Shown: in pieces, positions 9,875 to 28,848 of the stretch
Layout of the letters: every line of letters starts with the position of its first letter
How positions within the stretch are numbered: position 1 is the stretch's first letter
DNA from: an uncultured Oxalobacteraceae bacterium
Lineage (GTDB): Bacteria; Pseudomonadota; Gammaproteobacteria; Burkholderiales; Burkholderiaceae_D
Reading direction: 5' to 3'
NCBI GenBank assembly: GCA_903862415.1
Contig: CAIOYD010000076.1
Coordinates: forward strand, 1-36,970
Length of the DNA: 36,970 bases
The notes under the pieces: model-generated
The model's database searches: none
What the model was told of the DNA's origin: nothing
The model's input: the letters and a program-made list of their open reading frames with translations, nothing else
Made by a program: the position numbers and the translations under genes

Positions 9875-11269
9875 TTACTGATGCTTATCCAAATCAATCA
9901 ACAACCCAAACGATTCAAATTCTTCCAGCTTGCGGTACAGGCTGGATAAACCGATGCCGAGCTTTTGCGCTGCCAGACGGCGGTCGCCACAGACTTCGTT
10001 GATGATATTGTTGATGATGCCGAATTCAAATTGTCTGACCTGATCGCGCAGCAAAGCACTTGCGTTACTGTTATCTGGCAATACCCGGGGCGATATCCGG
10101 CTGATTTGGGCTGGCATGTCGGCAAACGTGATCCGGCCGGCATCAGCGAGAATCAGCGCGCGGTCGATGATATTTTCCATTTCGCGGATGTTGCCTGGCC
10201 AGTCGTAGCTTGCCAGGGCTTCTTCCACCTCGGAGTCAACGCTGATCAAGGTAGTGGTTTTCATGGCAGACGAGCCGCGTCCGATTAAAAATTGCATCAG
10301 TGCCGGGATATCCTGGCGGCGCTCGCGCAGAGGTGGCGCGTGGATATGGAAGACGCTCAGGCGGAAAAATAAATCCTGACGAAATTTCCCTTCGGCGACC
10401 ATTTGTGCCAGGTCGCGATTGGTGGCAGCTATGATGCGTACGTCGGCCTGACGCATTTGTTCACTGCCAACGGGGCGCACTGATTTTTCTTCAATCACAT
10501 GCAGCAGTTTGACTTGCAGCAGCAGCGGCAGTTCGCCAATTTCATCAAGAAAAATCGTGCCCTTGTCGGCTTCCATGAATAAGCCTTTTCTTGCTTTGTC
10601 GGCACCGGTAAAGGCGCCCTTGGTGTGGCCAAACAATTCGCTTTCCATCAGATTTTCCGGCAGAGCGCCGCAATTGACCGGAATAAAAGGTTCATTTGAA
10701 CGTGGACTGAGCTGATGAATGCGGCGTGCAATCACGCCTTTGCCGGTACCACTTTCACCGGTGACCAGTACCGTGCTGTCTGTGGGCGCTACTTTGCAAA
10801 TCAGCCGGTCCAGGTCGCGCATGGCGGCTGAATTGAACGCGAAAAAATCTTCTTTCTTGCCTTGCACCAGACTGCGTAATACCTGGTTTTCTGCGCGCAG
10901 GCCGCGTAAGTCTGCCAGTTTTAATAAGCGATGCATGACTTCCTGATTGCGCACCGGCTTGATCATGTAATCTGAGGCGCCAGCCTGTATGGCTTCGATG
11001 GCGGTGTCGACGGAGGCAAACGCGGTCATCATAATAAAATTGGTGTCGATGCCGGCAGCACGTACGCGCTGCACCAGCTCAATGCCGCTGATGTCGGGCA
11101 TTTTAATGTCGCAGATAGCGATTTCAATATCACCCTGTGACAGGCGTGCATAGGCATCAAGACCGTTAGGGGCGGTATGTACGTTGCAGCCAGCCTTGCT
11201 CAGGTAGGCGCTTAATATCTGACGGATGGCCGGCTCATCGTCGATGACCATGATTTCGAGAGATTTCAT
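9875..11269 (-). CDS. NtrC-family sigma54-dependent response regulator
   Basis: 464 residues with three domains. The receiver (1-120) has acidic pocket D10/D11, phospho-acceptor D54 (ICDIKMPD), T82 and K104 (MIKPV). The AAA+ domain (~145-380) has Walker A GESGTGKG (171-178), the sigma54-contact loop GAFTGA (218-223) and Walker B FLDEIGE. The C-terminal Fis-type helix-turn-helix is [25 protein letters not shown]. It is a canonical enhancer-binding activator of sigma54 RNA polymerase. The start overlaps the 3' end of the upstream kinase gene by four bases, so the two form a cognate pair. A perfect -24/-12 promoter in front of the cytochrome operon (14390-14405) is the obvious local target; this link is inference. 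Confidence 0.95.
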
Positions 11270-12783
11270 AGCTGATTGGCCTGGTTGTAGGAGATGTCGT
11301 CAGTCGGTAATACAATGTGCACGCAGGTGCCTACATTCACCGTCGAATCGATTTCGATGCTGCCGCCATGCATTTTGGTAATCGAGTAGCACAGCGACAA
11401 ACCCAGTCCGGTGCCTTTGCCGGCCGGTTTAGTGGTGAAGAAAGCGTCAAAAATGCGATGCAATACCTGCGGATCAATACCATGGCCATTGTCCGCAATT
11501 TTCAGGCTGACCTTATTGGCCAGAGGTTGTGTGGTAATGGAAATGGTGGCCGGGCGATCCTTGATGCCTTCGAGTGCGTCCATGGCATTGATGAGTAAAT
11601 TCATGATCAGCTGGGTGAGTTGATCAGCTACACCATACACAGCGGGTAACTGGGTATCCAGATGCAGTTCCAGATGGACGCCGCGCAAGCGTTTATCGTA
11701 ACGGATCAGATTGCTGGTATTGCGCAGTTGCTGATTTAAATCCAGATATTCGGCCACAGCAGCCTGAGGTGAGGCGAATTCGGCAATTTCGCGCGTGATG
11801 GCGGCGAGTCGTTTGGTTTGCTCGTAAATCAGTTCGGGCTGACAGTTATGGCAATTGGTCTGGTTGCAGGCAACTTGGCCCTGCGCGCGCCGATCAACCA
11901 TTTCCTGAGCAATGCCGGAAATGGCGGCGATCGGGTTGCCAATTTCATGCGCCACGCCTGCGGCGAGGGTACCAATGGCGGCCATTTTTTCTTGATGGAA
12001 GTATTTTTGCCGTTCCAGCATGAGTTCATTTTCACGTTGATCCAGCGCGCTGGCCATGTCATTGACTGCGATCATTAGCTGTCCGACTTCATCATGGCGG
12101 CTGATCTGGATCGGGTCGCCGCGAAAACCTTCCACAATTGCCAATGCTCGTGCCTGCAGCAGGCGGATATCGTCGGTGAGGCGGCGGAAAAATAGCCCGA
12201 TGATGGCCCCTAATAATCCCAGGCCAAGAAAACCCAGCAGGAAGACGGTAACGGCGACGGAATCGCTCTGAGTGCGATAATGATCGGACAGGGTTTTGCG
12301 GCGCTCCTGCATGGTTTCCATCAGGCGGGCAATGTCATCCTTGGTTTTGATGAGCTCGACACTCAGTTTATCCAGACTGGCTTTGGAAACATGCTGAGTC
12401 ATTTCCTCCCAGGCGTTATTGAGTGGTTGGAGATTTAATTCACCCTCTGTCAGACGGTCGGCCAAATCAGCTTGCGTATCGATTAAGGATTGGTAGTGAA
12501 TTTGCAGTGTCTGTAAATTGGTGCTGGGATTTTCTGCGTTGGCAAATATCGCCATCACCGCATGAAAAGCCGAAATTTCTGCCTGCTTCAACATAGTTTC
12601 GGTTTCCAGTGTGGTTTGAATTTCTTCAAAGTCATTCAGTAACAGGTTCTTTTGATGGAAGGCAAAAATGGCGATCAAAATCGAATAAATGATCAGCACA
12701 GAAAACACGATCAATCCTTTGGCTCGGATCGATAAGGATAACCCTGATTGAAACCAGAACGGCGATTTAAAAAGTGTGTTCAT
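11266..12783 (-). CDS. HAMP-domain sensor histidine kinase with Cys-rich insert
   Basis: 505 residues. TM1 is at ~23-43, a helical periplasmic sensor at ~45-172 and TM2 at ~176-198, followed by HAMP (~199-255). The dimerisation/phospho-acceptor segment is MAAIGTLAAGVAHEIGNPIA (H279). The HATPase_c domain has the N box (QLIMNLLINAMDAL), G1 box (DNGHGID), F box and G2 box (GKGTGLGLSLC). It resembles NtrB/AtoS-type kinases that pair with NtrC regulators. Unusual is C306-x4-C311-x2-C314 (ACNQTNCHNC) just after the catalytic His helix, which could bind a metal or sense redox state. The signal is unknown. It lies with the regulator on the minus strand, upstream of the regulator. Confidence 0.95.
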   Translation of the reverse strand: MNTLFKSPFWFQSGLSLSIRAKGLIVFSVLIIYSILIAIFAFHQKNLLLNDFEEIQTTLETETMLKQAEISAFHAVMAIFANAENPSTNLQTLQIHYQSLIDTQADLADRLTEGELNLQPLNNAWEEMTQHVSKASLDKLSVELIKTKDDIARLMETMQERRKTLSDHYRTQSDSVAVTVFLLGFLGLGLLGAIIGLFFRRLTDDIRLLQARALAIVEGFRGDPIQISRHDEVGQLMIAVNDMASALDQRENELMLERQKYFHQEKMAAIGTLAAGVAHEIGNPIAAISGIAQEMVDRRAQGQVACNQTNCHNCQPELIYEQTKRLAAITREIAEFASPQAAVAEYLDLNQQLRNTSNLIRYDKRLRGVHLELHLDTQLPAVYGVADQLTQLIMNLLINAMDALEGIKDRPATISITTQPLANKVSLKIADNGHGIDPQVLHRIFDAFFTTKPAGKGTGLGLSLCYSITKMHGGSIEIDSTVNVGTCVHIVLPTDDISYNQANQL

Positions 12784-13007: not shown

Positions 13008-13850
13008 TCAGCCATAAAAATGCAAACCAGAAAAAAATAAATTGACGGCCAGTGAACCTACTGCCGTCAGAACAAAGCCTGTAATCGCCCACCAGGCCAT
13101 GCGTCTTCCATGCCAGCGGTAACTTTGCTGCATCACTACATAAGCGGCATACCAAATCCAGATGAACAGTGTCCAGAGTTCCTTGGGGTCCCAGCCCCAG
13201 TTTTCCCCCCAGGTTTTATCCGCAAAGTAAATGCCCAGTGCCTGTGCCAGGGTGTACAGCACAAAACCGAGTTTCACCGATTGATGCATCAACAGTTCAA
13301 TTTCGGACAGGTTGTGGCGCAGCAAAATCGGTCCACCGGTTTGTTCCTGAAAAAAATGTTTGAAGGAGCGCCAGCTATACATGGCGCCGAGTGCGGCTGC
13401 GGCTGCGAAGGCGCTGTAAGCCACCAGATTGGCCAGTACATGGGCATGAATCCAATAACTGTGTAACAGCTGACTCGATTCCTTGCCCGACGTGGTGGCG
13501 GTGCCGAAGGATTGAAACAGAATTGCCACCGCCACGATCGGCATGACAAAAGCACCGGCGGAGCGGGTGCGATAACAGTATTCCATGATCAGGTAAGCCA
13601 GAACGGTGATGGCGCTAAACAGCGACAGCACATCAGGCAGGGTGGTCAGCGGGATATAGCTCGGGGGCTGGCCGATCAGTTTTAATATCAGTCCGCCTAT
13701 CAGGCCGAGGGCGCCGGTCGCCGATAAACCCATCGCCCACAGTCCCACGCCACCCTGTCTGAATTTAAGGTGCGCAATATACAGCAGCGTTGCGACCAGC
13801 AGCAGCAAATTGGCATAGCTGATGATGTTGTTTGAAAAAACCGGTTCCAT
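13008..13850 (-). CDS. ccsA: CcsA/ResC-type cytochrome c biogenesis protein
   Basis: 280 residues with about eight membrane helices. The C-terminal WWD domain is present (TWGENWGWDPKELWTLFIW), flanked by conserved histidines (HSYWIHAHVLANLVAYSAF; LLMHQSVKLGF). It ends SLAVNLFFSGLHFYG, the normal CcsA/ResC end. In System II, CcsA works with ResB/CcsB to export heme and ligate it to apocytochrome c; no resB is in this window, and System I (ccm) is encoded 6 kb away. The gene is on the minus strand, divergent from the multiheme cytochrome operon and upstream of the kinase/regulator genes. It may help mature the multiheme cytochromes or act in a heme-handling side role. Family call is secure; role is inferred. 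Confidence 0.88.
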   Translation of the reverse strand: MEPVFSNNIISYANLLLLVATLLYIAHLKFRQGGVGLWAMGLSATGALGLIGGLILKLIGQPPSYIPLTTLPDVLSLFSAITVLAYLIMEYCYRTRSAGAFVMPIVAVAILFQSFGTATTSGKESSQLLHSYWIHAHVLANLVAYSAFAAAAALGAMYSWRSFKHFFQEQTGGPILLRHNLSEIELLMHQSVKLGFVLYTLAQALGIYFADKTWGENWGWDPKELWTLFIWIWYAAYVVMQQSYRWHGRRMAWWAITGFVLTAVGSLAVNLFFSGLHFYG

Positions 13851-13921: not shown

Positions 13922-13941
13922 TTAAGCAATTTGCATTCCTG
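13922..13941 (-). promoter_or_regulatory. Candidate sigma54 promoter of the ccsA-like gene
   Basis: On the minus strand, AGGAATGCAAATTGCTT has GG and GC separated by ten bases, with a TTGCT -12 element and a partial -24 element (AGGAAT against TGGCAC). It lies about 75-90 bases upstream of the ccsA-like start. It is a weaker match than the one at 14390-14405. Confidence 0.35.
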
Positions 13942-14059
13942 TTCTACAGGTCGTCGGAATTCAGTGCGCTCGGGAGTATGGGGGAGGGGATAGCAGGGAT
14001 AAATTTTTTTGGGGAATGATGTAGATCCATTTTCTCGTTTCCGGTTATTCCCCGGAATT

Positions 14060-14077
14060 ATTCTCAAATTTGAGAAT
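14060..14077. promoter_or_regulatory. 18-bp perfect palindrome, candidate enhancer/operator
   Basis: ATTCTCAAATTTGAGAAT is a perfect 9+9 palindrome about 310 bases upstream of the sigma54 -24 element of the cytochrome operon and about 210 bases upstream of the divergent ccsA-like gene. NtrC-type activators bind such dyads at a distance, so it is a candidate site for the regulator encoded at 9875-11269. The rest of the 13851-14460 gap is AT-rich. It also holds a spaced repeat, GTATAGT (14156-14162) with ACTATAC (14190-14196), and shows no gene. Confidence 0.45.
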
Positions 14078-14389
14078 TGATAACATGGATTTTCGTCTTG
14101 TGTGGTTTGTTTGATACATAGTCAGAAATTGCTTTATTTATATCTAATTAAGTGAGTATAGTGCTAACTCAATAAGTAATAAATAATTAACTATACGATT
14201 TTAGTGGAATGCGTTATTTAAAAACTTTTCTCAATTAAATCAATTAGTTGTTTGTTTAAATGGAGCAGAAGTGGGTTGTGTTTTTGGTTGGTTTTGAGTT
14301 TATTTTTAAAAAATAAGGATACTTGGAAGGTCGTTGTTTACTCATGTTTTATTGCTATTTTTTGAGGAATTATCCCTGAGCCTATGATC

Positions 14390-14405
14390 TGGCATCGTTC
14401 TTGCA
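14390..14405 (+). promoter_or_regulatory. Sigma54 (-24/-12) promoter of the extracellular electron transfer operon
   Basis: TGGCATCGTTCTTGCA fits the consensus TGGCAC/T-N5-TTGCA at every key position, with GG (14391-14392) and GC (14403-14404) separated by exactly ten bases. Transcription should start near 14415, about 45 bases ahead of the monoheme cytochrome ATG. It implies RpoN-dependent, activator-driven expression. Confidence 0.85.
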
Positions 14406-14460: not shown

Positions 14461-14811
14461 ATGGACATGGCAAAAATTAAAGTTAGTTTGATCGCAGTGG
14501 CAACAGTCATCGGTCTGGGGTTGGTTTCAACAACAGCGTATTCGATGGACCCCAAAGCCGCTGAAGATATGGTGCGTCAGAACGGCTGTTTCAAATGCCA
14601 CTCAGTGACCAAGAAAAAAGAAGGCCCTGCTTATCATGAAGTGGCTGATAAATATCGCGGCAAGCCAGAAGCAGTGGCGCGCCTGACTACGCATATTACT
14701 TCAGGTGAAAAAGCGAAATTCCCTGATGGACATGAAGAAGAACACAAAGTGATTAAAACCAAAGATCCGGCAGAAATCAAAAATGTCGTTGAATGGATTC
14801 TGTCGCTGTAA
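14461..14811 (+). CDS. Periplasmic monoheme cytochrome c (MtoD-like)
   Basis: 116 residues. Signal peptide ~1-28 (ending TTAYSMD), then a class I cytochrome c fold with one heme site, NGCFKCHSV. Downstream motifs GPAYHEVADKYRGKPEAVARL and a C-terminal helix DPAEIKNVVEWILSL match the c-551/c-552 type. The usual distal ligand motif (PMPP) is absent: no methionine follows the heme site, and the region reads KFPDGHEEEHKVIK, so a histidine or lysine must supply the sixth ligand if there is one. The start at 14461 has AAGAGG upstream; ATG at 14467 is possible. It is the first gene after the sigma54 promoter. The likely role is electron shuttling between the inner-membrane and outer-membrane cytochromes, as for MtoD in iron oxidisers. 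Confidence 0.88.
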   Translation: MDMAKIKVSLIAVATVIGLGLVSTTAYSMDPKAAEDMVRQNGCFKCHSVTKKKEGPAYHEVADKYRGKPEAVARLTTHITSGEKAKFPDGHEEEHKVIKTKDPAEIKNVVEWILSL

Positions 14812-14954: not shown

Positions 14955-15950
14955 ATGAAGTATTTGCGACATATGCTGGCAGTAGTTGGATTGATCGGAC
15001 TTTTCGGTTACGGGGGCTCTGCGTTAGCGCAGGCAACCACAGCAGCTCCGGCTGCGACAGTAGCCGCTGCAGACCGTACCCGCGCAGGTGATGAAGTTTG
15101 CACCCGCTGTCATGATGAATCAGAAAATAAACCGGTACTTTCTTATTACCAGACCAAACATGGTGTTAAGGGTGATGCCCGCACTCCTGGCTGCCAGACT
15201 TGCCATGGTGCCAGTGCCAACCATCTTAAAGGTAACACCAGTGGTCAGCGTCCGGCTCCGGATGTGATCTTTACCAAAGGCGCGTTTGCAGCTTCGGATG
15301 AAAAAACCCGTGCCGCACAATGCCTGGCCTGCCATAAAGGTACCAACCGTACCCATTGGGAAGGCAGCAAGCATGAAAGTAATCAAGTGGCCTGTAACGA
15401 CTGCCATAAAAATCATGCACCAGCCGATAAAGTGTTGAACAGAAAAACCCAGACCGAAGTGTGCTTCGCCTGCCATAAAGAGCAACGTGCTGATAGTCAC
15501 AAGATTTCTGCCCATCCGATTGCTGAAGGCAAAGTCATCTGCTCTGATTGTCATAATCCACATGGTTCCCCTGCGGCTTCTCTGTTGAAGAAAAATACCG
15601 TGACTGAAACTTGCTATCAATGTCATGCAGAAAAACGCGGTCCATTCCTGTGGGAACATCAGCCAGTGTCAGAAAACTGTGCCAATTGCCACACACCACA
15701 CGGTTCCAATCAGACACCATTGTTGAAATCACGTGCGCCATTCCTGTGCCAGGAATGCCATGACGGTCCACATAACAGTAAAACTCCGTATGCAGGTTCA
15801 GTAGCTGGAATTCAAGGCGGCGTTACTTCAGCCACACCAACGAAAACACCAGTGAACCCAGGTAGTAACCAGGCCGGACGTGGATGTCAGAACTGCCACA
15901 GCATGGTTCATGGATCGAACAGTCCTGCAGGTGCCTTACTGCAGCGGTAA
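14955..15950 (+). CDS. mtoA: Periplasmic decaheme cytochrome c, DmsE/MtrA/MtoA/PioA family
   Basis: 331 residues from the ATG at 14955 (GGGAGA ribosome binding site); an ATG at 14922 would add a non-signal leader. The signal peptide ends GGSALAQA. Ten CxxCH sites are visible in order: CTRCH, CQTCH, CLACH, CNDCH, CFACH, CSDCH, CYQCH, CANCH, CQECH, CQNCH. Length and heme count match MtrA of Shewanella and MtoA of Sideroxydans (about 330 residues, ten hemes); PioA has an N-terminal extension that is missing here. In that family the protein is plugged into an outer-membrane barrel and forms a heme wire across the membrane. The barrel gene follows nine bases downstream. The symbol is by analogy; direction of electron flow is not shown by the sequence. 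Confidence 0.92.
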   Translation: MKYLRHMLAVVGLIGLFGYGGSALAQATTAAPAATVAAADRTRAGDEVCTRCHDESENKPVLSYYQTKHGVKGDARTPGCQTCHGASANHLKGNTSGQRPAPDVIFTKGAFAASDEKTRAAQCLACHKGTNRTHWEGSKHESNQVACNDCHKNHAPADKVLNRKTQTEVCFACHKEQRADSHKISAHPIAEGKVICSDCHNPHGSPAASLLKKNTVTETCYQCHAEKRGPFLWEHQPVSENCANCHTPHGSNQTPLLKSRAPFLCQECHDGPHNSKTPYAGSVAGIQGGVTSATPTKTPVNPGSNQAGRGCQNCHSMVHGSNSPAGALLQR

Positions 15951-15971
15951 TCAAGAAAAATGGAGTTTGAT

Positions 15972-18446
15972 ATGAAAACTTGTAATGCAAAATTGAGCGT
16001 TGGCGTGTTGGCAATCGCGGTGCAAAGTGCCCTGGCAGTGATGTTTTCGATGCCACTGCTGGCCCAGGCGCAAACGGCCGCTACAACCGAGGCAGATGAA
16101 GTTGCTGCCTTGGTTCATCCTGCGAATTTTATCGAAGTCGGTGCCGGAAATGTGTCTGAATCGTCCGCCAAATTCGGTGAATACAACGGTTTAAGCCGCT
16201 CCGGTGGTTATGCCGTGGGTAACTTCAGCTACCGTGGCGGCAGTGCCTACGATGGCGGTGAAGGTGTCTATCGCTGGGGAGTGTCTGGTGTGGATGTCGG
16301 TACCAAGTCGCATGAATTAGGCGCTACTGCGGCCAGTCAGGGACAATGGAATATCGGTTTCCGGTTTGATGAACTTACCCATGCAATTACCGATACTTAT
16401 CAGTCGCCCTTCATTGGTGTCATGGGTGGTAATGTGTTCACTCTGCCAGGCAACTTTGGCATCATTAACACCACGGCCATCACCAACAACAACAGTCAGC
16501 TGGTGGGTACACGGAATCTGAATGCGGCGCAATTGGGTGATTTTAATACCTATAATGTGGGCACTACCCGTAAAACCTCCGCGTTCTCAGCCGGTTACAT
16601 CATTAACCGCCAATGGAATCTGCAGTTTGATTATAGTCATCTTAACCAATCGGGTGCCAAGCTGATTTCCGGTGGATCATCCTCAGTGACAACAGGTATC
16701 GGCGCAGCCGGTATCTGGGCGGCTGAAGACATGATCACACTGATGAATCCGACTGACTATCAGACCGATACCTTTAATCTGGCCCTGAACTGGACAGGTG
16801 AAACGGGATTTTTCAGCGGCAGTCTGTACAGCTCGCTGTTTAATGATGGTACAGCTGGATTGTACTGGCAGAATCCGATGGGTAAAGGCAGCGCCACTAC
16901 TGGTGCCACCACCACGACTCTGGCGGGCGGCTATCAGCCTGATATGTTAAGCACTGCGCCTAACAATATCTTCAATCAGATCAATGCCAAGGGCGGTTAT
17001 TCGTTCACTCCGACCACCAAAGTGGCCGGTGGCGTATCGTACGGTCACAACACTCAGGCCGCAGGTTACACCAGTGACCTGATGATGATGCAGCCTGGCG
17101 GTTTGCCGGAAACTGCGCTTAACGGACTGGTGATTACCAAGAACGTCAACGCCAAGGTGACGGATAGTTCGGTTAAAAATCTGACTCTGAATGCCGGTTT
17201 CAAGTACAACGAACGTGAAAATCTGTCTGATTCACACGTTTATCTGATGTACGATCTGGGTGCTTTGCAACGGCTGGAAATCAACACGCCGTACAGCAAC
17301 AGCAAAACCGAATATGAACTCGCTGCGGCTTATCGCATCACTTCGGCACAGAATCTCAGTCTGGCGTACACCAATGAAGGCATTGAACGCTGGTGCCAGA
17401 ATGTGGCTGGCGCAGTCTCACCAACCTTGAACGGTGGTGTTTCACCGGCCAATGCCCAGTGTGTGATTGTTCCTTCCAGTAAGGAAGATAAACTGGCTCT
17501 GGCTTATCGCTATAAAGTCAGTGGCGACCTGAATCTGAATGCCTCCTACAGTCATGCCAGCCGGAAATCAACTGTCGATCAAAATGCGCTCACACCATTG
17601 AATGATGGTAAGGGCAATAATATGACCGGGTTTATTAATTCGGGCAATTTCCCAGGCTTTGTTTCGTTCTTTGACGCTTCACGTGATCAGGATCTGGCCA
17701 AACTGGGTGCCAACTGGCAGCCTATGGATGTGCTCAGTCTGAGTCTGTCCGGCAAGTACACCAAGGATCAGTACAAAGATGAACCACTGGGTGCACAAAA
17801 AGGTCATTCGTCGAGCGTGAATTTTGATACCAGTCTGAACTTCTCCGAAAACGGCACCATTTCCTTCTATGCGACAGAACAGGACAGATATCGTTATACC
17901 CTGTCTGGCGCATCGGCTGGCAGTGTTCCGAATGCGGTCGGTCAGAACAGCGACAACAACACCGCAGCTTTCCCTGCGCTGATTGCACCATCGAATGTCT
18001 TTAGCAACAGTTTGCACGATAAAGACACCACGGTTGGTCTAAATCTGCAGCAAAAGGGTCTGCTCGATGGTAAGTTGGATATGACTGCCGATGTTTCTCT
18101 GGCGCTGGGTAATACGTATTACACCACCGGTGTGCCTTACTACTACCTGTCACCAGCTTCGACAGCGGTCAATTCAGCGACTTGTGCTAGTTCGGCAGTG
18201 TTGTCCTGCGGTTCGACACCAACGATAACTAACCGTACGCTGCAGTTCAAGCTGACTGGTCAGTATCAGGTCAACAAGCACAGTAAAATAGCGGTGCGTT
18301 ATATGTACCAAAAAGAAAATACCAATGACTATTACTACAATGTCTATCAGTATGGTTTTTCTTCCAGCACCATGTTGCCAACCAACCAGCAGTCACCGAA
18401 CTATAGCGTCAATGCGGTAGCAGCCACTTATATCTACTCTTTTTGA
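15972..18446 (+). CDS. mtoB: MtrB/MtoB/PioB-family outer-membrane beta-barrel
   Basis: 824 residues from the ATG at 15972. The ATG at 15960 lacks a ribosome binding site, while GGAG at 15963-15966 serves the later one. The signal peptide ends MPLLAQAQ. The rest has alternating hydrophobic/polar strands with many Gly, Tyr, Asn and Ser and ends in an aromatic residue (ATYIYSF), as expected of an outer-membrane barrel. Motifs typical of the family include the N-terminal FIEVGAGNVSESSAKFGEYN and GFRFDELTHAITDTYQSPF. The N-terminal CxxC pair of Shewanella MtrB is not seen in the mature N-terminus. The protein sheathes the decaheme cytochrome encoded just upstream and holds it across the outer membrane. 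Size is nearer to MtoB/PioB than to MtrB (~700). Confidence 0.92.
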   Translation: MKTCNAKLSVGVLAIAVQSALAVMFSMPLLAQAQTAATTEADEVAALVHPANFIEVGAGNVSESSAKFGEYNGLSRSGGYAVGNFSYRGGSAYDGGEGVYRWGVSGVDVGTKSHELGATAASQGQWNIGFRFDELTHAITDTYQSPFIGVMGGNVFTLPGNFGIINTTAITNNNSQLVGTRNLNAAQLGDFNTYNVGTTRKTSAFSAGYIINRQWNLQFDYSHLNQSGAKLISGGSSSVTTGIGAAGIWAAEDMITLMNPTDYQTDTFNLALNWTGETGFFSGSLYSSLFNDGTAGLYWQNPMGKGSATTGATTTTLAGGYQPDMLSTAPNNIFNQINAKGGYSFTPTTKVAGGVSYGHNTQAAGYTSDLMMMQPGGLPETALNGLVITKNVNAKVTDSSVKNLTLNAGFKYNERENLSDSHVYLMYDLGALQRLEINTPYSNSKTEYELAAAYRITSAQNLSLAYTNEGIERWCQNVAGAVSPTLNGGVSPANAQCVIVPSSKEDKLALAYRYKVSGDLNLNASYSHASRKSTVDQNALTPLNDGKGNNMTGFINSGNFPGFVSFFDASRDQDLAKLGANWQPMDVLSLSLSGKYTKDQYKDEPLGAQKGHSSSVNFDTSLNFSENGTISFYATEQDRYRYTLSGASAGSVPNAVGQNSDNNTAAFPALIAPSNVFSNSLHDKDTTVGLNLQQKGLLDGKLDMTADVSLALGNTYYTTGVPYYYLSPASTAVNSATCASSAVLSCGSTPTITNRTLQFKLTGQYQVNKHSKIAVRYMYQKENTNDYYYNVYQYGFSSSTMLPTNQQSPNYSVNAVAATYIYSF

Positions 18447-18542: not shown

Positions 18543-19151
18543 ATGAATGATCAGGCAGCAGGCAAATCCATCGTGCGCAAGTGTGTGGATTTTTTAAGGA
18601 AACCGAGCGCTAAATACTCGATATTAACATTGCTGGTTATCGGATTTTTTTCCGGAATTTTCTTCTGGGGTGGCTTTAACACCGGAATGGAAGCCACCAA
18701 TCAGTTGGAATTCTGTATCGGCTGTCACGAAATGAAGGATAACGTGTACCAGGAATACAAGGAAACCATTCATTACACTAATCGTACCGGTGTGCGTGCC
18801 ATTTGTTCGGATTGCCATGTTCCGAAAGACTGGACCCACAAAATGATCCGTAAGGCCAAAGCTTCGTTTGAAGTCTGGGGTAAGCTCACAGGCGCCATCG
18901 ATACCAAGGAAAAATTTGAAGCCAAGCGTATGGAATTGGCGACGCATGAATGGGATCGGATGAAAGCTACCGGTTCACGTGAATGCCGCAACTGTCATAA
19001 TTTTGATGCCATGAATTCTCAAAAGCAAAAACCGCTGGCGCAAAAAAATCATGCTCAGGCAGTCAAAGATGGCAAAACCTGTATTGATTGCCATAAAGGG
19101 ATTGCGCATTTATTGCCAAAAGAGTACCGCGATCCGTCTGAAGATGAGTAA
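18543..19151 (+). CDS. cymA: NapC/NirT-type tetraheme quinol dehydrogenase (CymA-like)
   Basis: 202 residues. One N-terminal membrane anchor (about 25-45, ILTLLVIGFFSGIFFWGG) is followed by a periplasmic domain with four CxxCH sites: CIGCH, CSDCH, CRNCH and CIDCH. The motif NQLEFCIGCHEMKDNVYQEYKETIHYTNRTGVRA is the family hallmark; the later FEAKRMELATHEWDRMKATGSRECRNCHN also fits. NapC/CymA proteins exchange electrons between the quinone pool and periplasmic cytochromes. Here the partner is most likely the monoheme and decaheme cytochromes upstream. AAGGAAG precedes the ATG. In iron oxidisers the homologous protein is thought to run toward quinone; in iron reducers, away from it. Strong terminator after the gene. 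Confidence 0.93.
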   Translation: MNDQAAGKSIVRKCVDFLRKPSAKYSILTLLVIGFFSGIFFWGGFNTGMEATNQLEFCIGCHEMKDNVYQEYKETIHYTNRTGVRAICSDCHVPKDWTHKMIRKAKASFEVWGKLTGAIDTKEKFEAKRMELATHEWDRMKATGSRECRNCHNFDAMNSQKQKPLAQKNHAQAVKDGKTCIDCHKGIAHLLPKEYRDPSEDE

Positions 19152-19188
19152 TTCAACGCTAAATTAGCAGTTAGAGCGTTTTTACTGG

Positions 19189-19217
19189 AATGGCCATAGC
19201 AATATGGCCATTTTTTT
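19189..19217 (+). terminator. Rho-independent terminator of the electron transfer operon
   Basis: AATGGCCAT (19189-19197) pairs with ATGGCCATT (19204-19212) around AGCAAT, with seven consecutive T from 19211. It lies 40 bases after the CymA-type gene and separates that operon from ccmA. Confidence 0.88.
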
Positions 19218-22098: not shown

Positions 22099-24065
22099 TT
22101 CCTGAAATTGGTAATTTTTCTTTAATGCTGGCATTTTGCCTGGCGCTGGTGCAGGGAATTTTCCCGATCGCCGGCTCGTTTACCGGTAATTCGCGCTGGA
22201 TGTCGCTGGCACGACCGGTTTCCTTCGGACAGTTGCTGTTTGTTTCTCTGGCCTTCGGTTGTCTGGTGTATTCGTTTATCGCCAATGATTTTTCAGTCGC
22301 CTATGTCGAAGCCAATTCCAATTCCACACTGCCGGTGTATTACCGTATTGCCGGTACTTGGGGCGGACATGAAGGTTCGTTATTGTTGTGGATTCAGATG
22401 CTGGTGTTGTGGATGTCGGCCGTGGCGCTGTTCAGCCGTCAATTGCCGGATGAAACTGTAGCACGAGTATTGGGTGTGATGGGTTTGATCAGCGTGGGCT
22501 TTTTGAGTTTTATGCTGTTCACCTCCAATCCGTTTGACCGGTTGTTACCAGCGGCCATGGATGGTCGGGACCTGAACCCGCTGCTGCAGGATTTCGGCAT
22601 GATTATTCATCCGCCGCTACTCTACATGGGATATGTTGGTTTTTCTGTTGCCTTCGCGTTTGCACTGGCCGCACTCATGGGTGGTCAGCTCGATGCTACC
22701 TGGGCACGCTGGTCACGTCCGTGGACATTGATGGCCTGGATGTTTTTGACCCTGGGAATTTTCGTTGGCAGCTTCTGGGCTTATTATGAACTCGGCTGGG
22801 GCGGCTGGTGGTTCTGGGATGCGGTAGAAAACGCGTCCTTCATGCCGTGGTTGGTTGGGACTGCGCTGATTCATTCGCTGGCGGTGACGGAAAAACGTGG
22901 CAGCTTTAAAAACTGGACCGTGCTGCTGGCCATTATTGCCTTCTCGCTGTCGCTGTTGGGAACCTTTCTGGTACGTTCCGGTGTGCTGACTTCGGTACAT
23001 GCTTTTGCCACCGATCCGCGCCGTGGTTTGTTTATTCTGGTGTTTCTGGCGATCGTGATTGGCGGCGCGTTAATGCTGTATGCATGGCGCGCTCCGCAGG
23101 TGGGACTGGGTGGCAAGTTCAGTCTGTTTTCTCGCGAAACCATGTTGTTGATTAATAATGTGCTGCTGTTGGCGTCTTCCGGTACGGTTTTGTTGGGTAC
23201 GCTCTATCCACTGTTTCTGGATGCGTTGAATTTGGGTAAAATTTCTGTCGGACCACCGTATTTTGAGGCGGTGTTTGTGCCGCTGATGCTGCCTATTCTG
23301 CTCCTCATGGCGGTAGGGCCGTTCGTGCGTTGGAAGCAGGCTGACCTGAAAGAAATTCTGTTGCGTCTGAAATGGGTGGCGCTGGGTGCGGTCTTGTTGG
23401 GTGGTGGAATCGCACTGTTGCTAGCGACATCGGTCATGGTGTTTGTCGGCGTCACGCTGGCACTCTGGATTTTCCTCGCCACCGGTTCGCATCTGGCACA
23501 AACGTTGCAACATGCGCCGGTCGGTACTTCGCTGTGGAAGCGGATTGCCAGTCAGCCGCGCAGTTACTGGGGCATGATCGTGGCTCACGCCGGTATCGCC
23601 ATTTTTGTGATTGGCGTGACCATGATCAAGGGTACGGAAAGCGCCAATGATCTGAGCATGCATCTGGGTGACACCACCAGTATTGCTGGTTATGATTTCC
23701 GGTTTACCGATATTAAGTCAGTGAAGGGTCCGAATTATGACGCTGCTCAAGGTACCTTTGAAGTCACCCGTAACGGCCAGTTGATTGCTGTGATGAAGCC
23801 GGAAAAACGGCTGTTCTCGGTACAGCAGATGCCAATGACGGAAGCGGCTATTAACCGTGGCTTTACCCGCGATCTGTATGTGTCGCTGGGCAATTCTACT
23901 GCGCAGGATGTCTGGGTAGTACGTGTGCAGCACAAACCGTTTGTCAGCTGGATCTGGACTGGCTGTCTGGTGATTGCCTTCGGCGGTTTGCTGGCGGCAT
24001 CGGATCGGCGTTATCGCATGGCGGGGCGCAAAAAGAAACTGGCTGCAACTACGGTGGCGGGGTAA
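22095..24065 (+). CDS. ccmF: Cytochrome c heme ligase subunit CcmF
   Basis: 656 residues with about 14-15 membrane helices. The WWD motif is [21 protein letters not shown]. Family motifs [55 protein letters not shown] and the periplasmic C-terminal domain are complete. CcmF receives heme from CcmE, reduces it and, with CcmH and CcmI, ligates it to the CxxCH motif of apocytochrome c. At least 15 such sites lie in the operon just upstream. Length is normal. Confidence 0.96.
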
Positions 24066-26438: not shown

Positions 26439-26474
26439 ATCGCCCGGGTGCCGATGTGACTACCATCGTTGCTT

Positions 26475-27479
26475 ATGAAAACTATTGATCTGGTAGCCCC
26501 GGCCGGCAGTCTGGTGGCACTTAAAGCGGCCATCGATAAAGGTGCCGATGCGGTCTATCTTGGCCTGAAAAATGCCACTAATGCACGCAATTTTGGCGGC
26601 CTCAATTTTGGTGAGGCCGATATTCGCGCCGGTGTCGAGTATGCCCATGCCCGAAACCGATCGGTTTTGTTTGCCATTAATACCTATCCGCAAACCCGGG
26701 CGGTGCAGGAATGGCGCTCAGCCCTTGATACCGCCGTCAAAATGGGTGCTGATGCAGTTATTCTGGCTGATCCGGGTCTGATGGCCTATGCGCGCGATAA
26801 ACACCCTGAGCTGCGTTTGCATCTGTCGGTACAGGGCTCAGCCACCACGGTCGATGCCATCGAACTCATGCGCGAACAGTTCAATATCAAACGTGCCGTC
26901 TTGCCTCGGGTGCTGACTCTGCCGGAAATTGAAAAAATCGTCCGCCAAACTTCGGTGGAAATCGAAGTCTTTGGCTTTGGCAGTCTGTGTGTCATGGCCG
27001 AAGGCCGCTGTCTGCTGTCGAGTTACGTCACCGGCGATTCACCCAACAACAAAGGGGTGTGTTCGCCCGCACATGCGGTGAGCTGGCAGGAAGAAAATCA
27101 CACCATGTATGCGCGCCTGTCTGGCACCCTGATCGATATTTATGCGCCGGGAGAACCGGCTGGCTATCCCACCCTGTGCAAAGGGCGCTTTGAAGTCGAA
27201 GGCGAGCTCGACTATGCACTCGAAGAACCGACTAGCTTAAATGCGATCGGACTTTTGCCGCAGTTAGTAAATATGGGGATTTCCGCCATCAAGATAGAAG
27301 GACGGCAGCGCAGCCCGAATTATGTCTCGCAGGTCGTGGGCACTCTCAGAGCGGCGCTCGATGCGGCGCTCAAAGATCCGGTGCGTTATTCACCCCGAGC
27401 TGACTGGATGAGCACCTTGGCCAAACATGCCGAAGGATCACAGGTAACCCAGGGTGCTTTTGAACGTCCGTGGAAATAA
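26475..27479 (+). CDS. ubiU: O2-independent ubiquinone hydroxylation protein UbiU (peptidase U32 family)
   Basis: 334 residues from the ATG at 26475. The start MKTIDLVAPAGSLVALKAAIDKGADAVYLG is typical of YhbU/UbiU. The four cysteines that hold the 4Fe-4S cluster are present at C172, C179, C196 and C235 (LCVMAEGRC, GVCSPAH, TLCKGRF), with the same spacing as in E. coli UbiU. UbiU and UbiV together perform the hydroxylation steps of ubiquinone synthesis without oxygen, using prephenate as hydroxyl donor in the known system. ubiV starts two bases after the ubiU stop codon. The C-terminus is normal in length. Confidence 0.94.
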   Translation: MKTIDLVAPAGSLVALKAAIDKGADAVYLGLKNATNARNFGGLNFGEADIRAGVEYAHARNRSVLFAINTYPQTRAVQEWRSALDTAVKMGADAVILADPGLMAYARDKHPELRLHLSVQGSATTVDAIELMREQFNIKRAVLPRVLTLPEIEKIVRQTSVEIEVFGFGSLCVMAEGRCLLSSYVTGDSPNNKGVCSPAHAVSWQEENHTMYARLSGTLIDIYAPGEPAGYPTLCKGRFEVEGELDYALEEPTSLNAIGLLPQLVNMGISAIKIEGRQRSPNYVSQVVGTLRAALDAALKDPVRYSPRADWMSTLAKHAEGSQVTQGAFERPWK

Positions 27480-27480
27480 T

Positions 27481-28383
27481 ATGACCTTACCCAAATTATC
27501 GCTCGCACCGTTGTCCTTTTTCTGGTCCAAGGCCGACACCCAGGCTTTTTACATTGCCATGCTCGACACGCCGGTGGATATTATTTATCTCGGTGAAGTC
27601 GTTTGTTCGCGGCGCCATTTAATGAAACCCGATGACTGGTTTGAGCTCGCCGGTGAACTGACCGCGGCTGGTAAAAATGTGGTCATGTCGAGTCAGATTT
27701 TAATTGACAATGAATCCGATCGGCGCAGCATGCATCGACAGATTGAACGCGCTCAGGCGGCCCAGATCGAGGTGGAAGCCAACGATTTCAGCGCCGTGCG
27801 CGCACTGCATCAGCTGCAGTATCCGTTTATCGCCGGCCCACATCTGAATGTGTATCATGCCGATACACTGAACTGGCTCGCCGGTCTGGGTGCCAAACGG
27901 TTTTCGCCGCCGTTTGAAATGTCCGGTGCCGATCTGGCGTCCCTGCAGCAAACCCGTCCCGAAGGAATCGAAACTGAAGTGCAGGTCTGGGGACGGATGG
28001 CGCTGGCGTTTTCGGCCCGCTGCTTTACTGCGCGCCATCATCGCTTAAAAAAAGACAGCTGCGAATTCCGCTGTGATGCCTATCCGGATGGACTGGCACT
28101 GGCTACGCGCGATGGCAAGCAGTTTTTGAATCTCAATGGTATTCAAACCCAAAGTGCCACCTGTCTGGATCTGGGCGCACAATTACCCGAGCTCGCTGCC
28201 ATGCAGGTCGATATTCTGCGCCTGCAGCCGCAGTCGCAACATATGGCAGAAATTTTGGCCGTATTTGCGGCTGCCCGTAACAGCAAGAGTGCCGCGCACG
28301 TGCCTGACAGTGCACTGCCACCGAATGCCGCCCGCAGCAATGGTTATTGGTTTGATACCGCCGGTATGCAATGGGCATCCTGA
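27481..28383 (+). CDS. ubiV: O2-independent ubiquinone hydroxylation protein UbiV (peptidase U32 family)
   Basis: 300 residues from the ATG at 27481; the frame is open back to 27454, but that region lies inside ubiU. Cluster cysteines C42 (GEVVCSRR), C181, C194 and C198 (ARCFTARHHRLKKDSCEFRC) match the four ligands of E. coli UbiV within one to three positions. It forms a heterodimer with UbiU for anaerobic ubiquinone synthesis. The coupling to ubiU and to ubiT downstream gives the standard ubiUVT set in one run, which fits a bacterium that uses ubiquinone under anoxic respiration. Confidence 0.94.
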   Translation: MTLPKLSLAPLSFFWSKADTQAFYIAMLDTPVDIIYLGEVVCSRRHLMKPDDWFELAGELTAAGKNVVMSSQILIDNESDRRSMHRQIERAQAAQIEVEANDFSAVRALHQLQYPFIAGPHLNVYHADTLNWLAGLGAKRFSPPFEMSGADLASLQQTRPEGIETEVQVWGRMALAFSARCFTARHHRLKKDSCEFRCDAYPDGLALATRDGKQFLNLNGIQTQSATCLDLGAQLPELAAMQVDILRLQPQSQHMAEILAVFAAARNSKSAAHVPDSALPPNAARSNGYWFDTAGMQWAS

Positions 28384-28410
28384 TGAAGATAATGTTGACA
28401 GAGGCAGATT

Positions 28411-28848
28411 ATGCATTTGACTGATTTTCGTTTCCCAGCCCTTTTTGGCCGTCTGGGCAAGTTGATTCCTGCACCACTGGCCAGTGCACCCTTGTTAATC
28501 ATGCTTGACATAGCCCGTCGGCGCGAATGGCTGCTGGCACCCGAGACGCTGTACGGCAAATGCTTTCAGATTCAGATAGAAGATATGGGCTTGACGATTC
28601 AGTTTGTCTGCGATCAGGGTAAATTCAAACCGCGCCGTAGCAACGCTGTTGACGTGGACGTACGCTTATCCGCCATGGCAGCCGATTTCTTCCAGCTGGC
28701 CTCGGGCATGGCTGACGCCGATACGCTGTTTTTTCAGCGCAAACTGAAAATCGAAGGCGATACCGAACTCGGTGTCGCCGTCAAATACTGGCTTGATGCC
28801 AGTGAACGGCCTGAGTGGCTCAATCAGCTGGCTGATAAATTAGCCTGA
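28411..28848 (+). CDS. ubiT: Ubiquinone biosynthesis accessory factor UbiT (SCP2 domain)
   Basis: 145 residues with a SCP2-type lipid-binding fold. YGKCFQIQIEDMGLTIQFVCDQGKF, then VDVDVRLSAMAADFFQLASGMADADTLFFQRKLKIEGDTELGVAVKYWLDA is the YhbT/UbiT pattern. In E. coli UbiT is the anaerobic counterpart of UbiJ and is thought to hold the hydrophobic quinone precursors for the Ubi enzymes. It follows ubiV by 27 bases with an AGAGG-like ribosome binding site. Confidence 0.93.
   Translation: MHLTDFRFPALFGRLGKLIPAPLASAPLLIMLDIARRREWLLAPETLYGKCFQIQIEDMGLTIQFVCDQGKFKPRRSNAVDVDVRLSAMAADFFQLASGMADADTLFFQRKLKIEGDTELGVAVKYWLDASERPEWLNQLADKLA

Follow-up and report, generated by a model that had tools for sequence, protein, structure and literature searches.

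In our study, the window, a stretch of 36,970 nucleotides from an uncultured Oxalobacteraceae bacterium, was found to carry a cytochrome operon of the mto type which is likely to be governed by a sigma54/NtrC two-component switch, the kinase/NtrC-type pair encoded next door turning on the operon via a palindrome and a sigma54 element at 14390-14405. The following elements and genes, in this order, were seen directly in the DNA.

9875-11269, minus strand: NtrC-type response regulator with a receiver, a sigma54-activating AAA+ domain with GAFTGA and a Fis-type HTH
11266-12783, minus strand: sensor histidine kinase with HAMP, HisKA and HATPase domains and, past its phospho-accepting His, a C-x4-C-x2-C motif
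13008-13850, minus strand: ccsB-like cytochrome c biogenesis gene, first of the divergent operon (PF01578; TIGR03144 140.9 bits, under the cut-off of 187.6)
13925-13940, minus strand: weak sigma54-like element of the ccsB-kinase-regulator operon, AGGAATGCAAATTGCT (score 8.4)
14032-14047, no strand assigned: candidate second, weaker enhancer (UAS), TTCTCGTTTCCGGTTA, third-best match in the window, its start 29 b away from that of the first
14061-14076, no strand assigned: candidate enhancer (UAS) for the NtrC-type regulator, TTCTCAAATTTGAGAA, a perfect palindrome and the best-scoring site of the window under a matrix to which the window contributed no training site
14238-14250, plus strand: possible IHF site AATCAATTAGTTG between the UAS and the promoter, weak, an exact match to WATCAANNNNTTR
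14390-14405, plus strand: sigma54 (-24/-12) element of the mto operon, TGGCATCGTTCTTGCA, an exact pattern match with a matrix score of 16.1
14461-14811, plus strand: mtoD-like monohaem cytochrome c (PF00034), with homologues ahead of mtoA in many loci
14955-15950, plus strand: mtoA, decahaem cytochrome of the MtrA/PioA/DmsE family (TIGR03508 280.6 bits, cut-off 192.2)
15960-18446, plus strand: mtoB, MtrB/PioB outer-membrane porin (TIGR03509 392.1 bits, cut-off 240.05)
18543-19151, plus strand: cymA-like NapC/NirT tetrahaem cytochrome (PF03264, 2.5e-76)
19187-19214, plus strand: terminator-like hairpin 3' of cymA, with a 12-pair stem and a T tail

The genes mtoD-mtoA-mtoB-cymA follow each other in this order on the plus strand as one operon, and their products are predicted to form a porin-cytochrome conduit of the MtoAB/PioAB/MtrAB type through the outer membrane; the mtoA product contains ten CXXCH haem motifs. 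The hairpin behind cymA comes from a scan which gave no overall excess (8 found against a shuffle mean of 6.8). Downstream of it lie the ccm genes and, directly after the ccm cluster at 26469-28848, genes with U32-peptidase, U32-peptidase and SCP2 domains, which are consistent with UbiU, UbiV and UbiT of oxygen-independent ubiquinone synthesis. This likely identity suggests that the whole cluster is used at low oxygen.

The ccsB-kinase-regulator operon runs opposite to the mto operon. The initial annotation had placed a kinase/NtrC pair with an intact GAFTGA loop about 1.6 kb from the sigma54 element, and this agrees with the kinase start at 12783, which is 1,607 b away, and with the residues of the regulator, in which receiver D54, K104, Walker A and GAFTGA are all present. 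The regulator scored under the curated equivalog cut-offs for AtoC (434.6 of 714) and ZraR (355.9 of 760). In the kinase, a cysteine cluster (C306-x4-C311-x2-C314) follows the phospho-accepting His; among 12 kinase orthologues C311 and C314 are invariant and C306 is kept in 10, and the cluster may, speculatively, form a redox or metal sensor. The weak element AGGAATGCAAATTGCT is similar to TGGAAY-N5-TTGCT, a pattern which occurs ahead of ccsB or the kinase gene in eight orthologous loci.

The sigma54 consensus is TGGCAC-N5-TTGCW, from which TGGCATCGTTCTTGCA deviates at the sixth base alone (T for C). Its GG at 14391-14392 and GC at 14403-14404 are separated by ten nucleotides on the plus strand, and the mtoD ATG at 14461 follows after a gap of 55 b, which bears out both the GG-N10-GC spacing and the distance to the first cytochrome gene that were given initially. 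The pattern TGGCAYN5TTGCW has 2 matches on both strands of the window against 0.08 predicted from composition. The other exact match (23494-23509) is inside ccmF and was set aside as a promoter, being intragenic and probably a chance or coding coincidence. When two mismatches were tolerated, the window had no excess of the sigma54 pattern (57 found, 57 expected). The matrix used for scoring is reportedly an approximation after Barrios et al. 1999; with it, a score equal to that of TGGCATCGTTCTTGCA arises about 0.0007 times per resampled 611 b intergenic stretch on the same strand (1,500 resamplings). In the whole genome of 3.58 Mb, which also encodes rpoN, the exact pattern occurs 25 times and the reversed pattern 3 times. 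Context was obtained for 23 of the 25 (L055 and L074, below the score limit, were left out): 17 copies lie within an ORF of at least 60 aa and 6, including the one at mtoD, are intergenic, and the pattern by itself therefore proves nothing. Two other intergenic copies precede a pilin gene and a PrpB-like gene, and one copy stands before a NarK-like transporter gene and overlaps an opposite 68-aa ORF (N-termini read by eye in each case). No sigma70-like site was matched on the plus strand between 12700 and 14460.

The candidate enhancer was derived from related loci. Dyads taken promoter by promoter yielded no common motif before EM. The EM analysis of 26 upstream regions picked at regulator-bearing loci, in which a palindrome constraint was imposed, gave TTCYCR-N4-YGRGAA with a log-likelihood of 89.7, compared with 26.7-28.4 in three shuffles, and the motif passed the EM listing threshold in 17 of the 26 promoters. 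The mtoD upstream stretch supplied to EM stopped short of the window palindrome, and the matrix was built from 12 of the 17 EM sites, leaving out the window's site and four weak ones. With this window-free matrix, 14061-14076 ranks first in the window with 19.0, the next match reaching 14.1 and the reversed window 10.3. The exact form of TTCYCR-N4-YGRGAA has a single occurrence in the genome, which falls between mtoD and the ccsB-kinase-regulator operon, where 0.0006 matches are expected in the 611 b intergenic stretch. It is 313 b away from the mtoD element and 120 b from the weak element on the ccsB side, and the stretch that separates it from the mtoD element is 72% A+T. The possible IHF site, which matches the IHF consensus WATCAANNNNTTR, was not relied on as evidence, the chance of at least one such match being 0.06. 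A palindrome-like match at the ccmF start (22099) was set aside as intragenic. Exact palindromes in the source genome are no more numerous than the reversed control (1 and 1), and this count by itself was considered uninformative.

In the relatives, sigma54-type elements at mtoA, mtoD, ccsB, ccmA and other promoters have the palindrome at a distance of 42-309 b. Of 20 regulator loci, 18 have a palindrome scoring at least 15, compared with 1 of 9 regulator-negative family loci, and the reversed sequences of the regulator loci gave none; nine of these 20 had supplied training sites for the matrix, and among the 11 outside training the palindrome was present in 9. A further test of regulator orthologues covered 18 of the 80 named loci, partly selected for having the palindrome. 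Eight of them have a regulator orthologue (57-72% identity) and ten do not. Among the eight, the four loci L110, L112, L128 and L139 have the palindrome ahead of an mto gene; none of the ten does, and the 4 of them that have a palindrome carry it away from mtoA in all cases. At two loci of Ramlibacter, whose genomes contain a regulator orthologue, the palindrome precedes mtoA and no recognisable element was found. Over whole genomes, 140 exact palindromes were counted in 21 regulator-positive genomes (control 38) and 60 in 21 negative ones (control 36).

Comparison with related loci shows that regulator, element and palindrome are associated. For the mtoA loci, 80 were used (79 named mtoA loci and the window) out of 81 candidates, L123 being dropped as it had no scored mtoA ORF, and an element was counted at a score of at least 12 within -250..+60 of the mtoD, cymA or mtoA start. 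This range and threshold were chosen once a wider scan (-1300..+150) had given matches in loci with no activator seen as well. With them, a sigma54 element precedes the mto operon in 7 of the 8 loci where a sigma54 activator is encoded and in 0 of the 72 others (p=2.5e-9); when the window was excluded, the figures were 6 of 7 and 0 of 72 (p=2.5e-8). The reversed sequences of the 80 loci gave 0 elements and the opposite strand 1/72 at score 12, and two of the 72 activator-less loci pass if the threshold is lowered to 11. The wider scan of 107 segments gave 20 sites versus 5 reversed at a score of at least 12, and 14 versus 0 at a score of 13 and above. Some loci are short (4 of the 72 activator-less loci have less than 250 b upstream, and 9 of the 80 named loci are below 8 kb), so that any activator or element past the end of a contig is overlooked.

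In Duganella alba, the element AGGCATCGTTTTTGCT is found 48 b ahead of mtoA, and the activator is the orthologue of the window's regulator. The other activators are of NtrC type, 33-36% identical to that of the window, and belong to Hydrogenophilales, a Terriglobia genome, Sterolibacterium, Rhodocyclaceae and a Sideroxydans MAG. The activator-bearing exception among the 80 loci is L090, which has a GAF-type activator without a receiver and no element. The element and the beginning of the longest ORF overlap at L087 and L088, and a later start must therefore be assumed. An NtrC-type pair is also encoded at L019, a locus not among the 80, where no element was found before mtoD or mtoA (best score 5.9); a strong sigma54-type site in this locus (5989, minus strand) faces the NtrC-type pair and not mtoD. 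A second NtrC-type pair near the mto genes was observed in L019, L087, L108 and L140, alike among these loci and only about a third identical to the window's regulator.

The element was also looked for before haem genes in family genomes, where it was present in 9 of 13 regulator-positive and 0 of 6 regulator-negative genomes, a modest difference (p=0.008) with one match in the reversed control. G739, G484, G505 and G514, all regulator-positive, had no element before haem genes within -250..+60, and in G739 TGGCACATTTCTTGCT is just beyond this range. Recurrent matches of the TGGTGCGATTCTTGCT type inside regulator genes were disregarded as they are in coding sequence. Strong sigma54-type sites (16.1-18.0) were observed before ccmC at L208:14654, L207:16495, L228:1796 and L017:14596, some with palindromes nearby; unlike in several family members, none of the top 20 sites of the window stands before its ccmC.

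Lack of conservation in close relatives, which the initial annotation had named as counting against its proposal, is thus seen in part: the element goes with the regulator and not with mtoA. The mtoA loci closest in sequence (Polaromonas L075 and L076; Sideroxydans L077) do not have it, and conservation by mtoA alone fails, with 0 of 72 loci without an activator having the element. The proposed link between regulator and promoter is strongly supported by co-occurrence, by the presence of the element together with an activator and by the common palindrome; four of the 13 regulator genomes and L019 are without the element and speak against it.

The regulator and the conduit were also found to occur together across the family, which includes Duganella alba. 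The regulator search and the MtrB/PioB search covered 392 family genomes each, which were taken as the same set. A regulator orthologue (68-77% identity) is present in 21 of them, a porin over the cut-off in 17 and both in 13 (p=6.6e-16, uncorrected for phylogeny). Because the genomes share ancestry and are not independent, the genus-level test is the safer figure, with the conduit in 7 of 8 regulator genera (p=2.3e-5). Regulator and porin are on one contig in 10 of the 13 genomes with both, and within 60 kb in 9; eight carriers of the regulator have no MtrB over the cut-off, and four porin carriers are without the regulator. Four further genomes of the source's own genus had neither regulator nor porin. 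The kinase gene is present at 16 of the 20 regulator loci, and at 8 it is preceded by a ccsB homologue; ccm or multihaem genes fall within the fetched stretch at 14 of the 20. In G580 the regulator is beside ccm genes and no MtrB over the cut-off was found. L128, L139 and L143 correspond to G547, G573 and G505, with the same contig places. At L219, L223, L224 and L225, which have a regulator orthologue and no MtrB over the cut-off, a sigma54 element and a palindrome are divergent from the regulator, and in L225 the gene opposite the regulator encodes a PAS-GGDEF-EAL protein.

In the switch that we propose, sigma54 RNA polymerase would transcribe mtoD-mtoA-mtoB-cymA from 14390-14405, and the neighbouring kinase/NtrC-type pair would switch the operon on. 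Here we infer the binding of the regulator, its phosphorylation and the direction of control: the phosphorylated regulator would bind the palindrome at 14061-14076, and perhaps also 14032-14047, and DNA looping, perhaps helped by IHF and the A+T-rich stretch, would bring the GAFTGA loop to the promoter to open it. The palindrome, placed between the divergent operons, would probably act on the ccsB-kinase-regulator operon as well, by way of the weak element at 13925-13940, so that the regulator would promote its own expression in a positive feedback. The kinase is speculated to sense the redox state or a metal through its cysteine cluster.

Other explanations of the same elements were considered. 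The -24/-12 match may have arisen by chance, the mto operon being transcribed from an unrecognised promoter of the sigma70 or FNR/CRP type; the motif is short, the matrix is approximate, and the pio genes of Rhodopseudomonas are under FixK according to the available part of a report (PMC13327599). However, the small number of such matches expected at that place and strand (0.0007), the presence of the element at 7 of 8 activator loci and at none of the 72 others, and the lack of a sigma70-like match upstream on the plus strand all argue against it, and this explanation is considered very improbable. A real sigma54 promoter activated by some other enhancer-binding protein, with the neighbouring pair serving ccsB or something else, is a less remote alternative, and still an improbable one. 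Several members of the NtrC family are encoded in related genomes, with between 2 and 21 matches in each, MtrB does not reach the cut-off in eight of the regulator carriers, the regulator of L219 and L223-L225 is opposite another gene with its own palindrome and element, and the NtrC-type pair of L019 is accompanied by no mto element. On the other hand, element and palindrome track the window's regulator and the conduit, and in genomes with the regulator, sigma54-type elements at mtoA, mtoD, ccsB and ccmA repeatedly have the palindrome close by.

The strongest of the alternatives accepts the regulator as the activator and widens its role, making it a regulator of cytochrome c maturation and low-oxygen respiration in general, for which the conduit would be one of several targets. 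Palindromes and sigma54-type sites at the ccm genes of several relatives, the place of ccsB in the regulator operon and the regulator of G580 beside ccm genes, with no MtrB over the cut-off, are in line with such a role, whereas the strong co-occurrence of the regulator with MtrB/PioB, the location of the genome's sole exact palindrome next to mtoD and the fact that none of the window's top 20 sigma54 sites (score of at least 10.2) precedes its ccm genes are not. We regard this wider role as rather unlikely, although distinctly less so than the two preceding explanations. The dedicated switch acting on the mto operon remains the preferred reading.

If this switch is correct, mto-type conduits gain a candidate regulator, promoter and enhancer sequence, with Duganella alba FT9W and Herbaspirillum sp. 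ST 5-3 as relatives for study, and the conduit and cytochrome c assembly are predicted to be under shared control. A broader and tentative proposal, for which our confidence is low, is that a dedicated switch with its own enhancer code, TTCYCR-N4-YGRGAA, and with redox or metal sensing through the cysteine cluster may serve conduits and cytochrome maturation genes across much of Burkholderiales, and that distant NtrC-type pairs may have been recruited independently elsewhere (including Hydrogenophilales and a Terriglobia genome), sigma54 being the recurrent gate.

The initial annotation had held that RpoN-driven control of an Mto/Pio-type conduit is not known to be established, and this is in keeping with the open PMC literature, where among the matches listed no sigma54 or NtrC-type control of Mto/Pio/MtrAB conduits is reported and no transcription factor is named for mto operons. 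Geobacter sulfurreducens belongs to another phylum and has another conduit family, and FixK is a regulator of the CRP/FNR type. In G. sulfurreducens, RpoN influences the pilin and the cytochromes of extracellular electron transfer, with omcB up in an overexpression strain, and the accessible portion of that work names no Mto/Pio/MtrAB operon (PMC2725144). The pioABC operon of Rhodopseudomonas palustris is a homologous and regulated conduit, but the regulation described in the available text passes through FixLJ-FixK (PMC13327599). Bacteria that live by mineral oxidation or reduction keep their conduits under control; iron oxidation in Sideroxydans is regulated, as stated in the available portion of one report (PMC12442390), and the accessible sections of PMC12016527, PMC8805035, PMC13390432, PMC10734462, PMC5566968 and PMC12316311 make no mention of sigma54/NtrC control of conduits.

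The Mto system of Sideroxydans lithotrophicus ES-1 (MtoA, MtoB, MtoD and CymA/ImoA) resembles that of the window in the clustering of a decahaem cytochrome, a porin, a monohaem cytochrome and a tetrahaem NapC-type protein. Whereas the window has a kinase/NtrC-type pair and a sigma54 element, the main texts of PMC12016527 and PMC13390432, in the parts available, mention no two-component system, kinase or sigma factor for it. Among the Sideroxydans/Sideroxyarcus loci L077, L087 and L094, an activator and an element are found together in L087 only, the activator being about 34% identical to that of the window. In its domain order and sigma54-contacting loop the pair of the window is like AtoSC and ZraSR; it differs from them in scoring under the AtoC and ZraR cut-offs, in having its own palindrome and in the conserved cysteine cluster of its kinase. 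The parts are all of known kinds, and it is their combination, the enhancer code and the recurrence which appear to be new.
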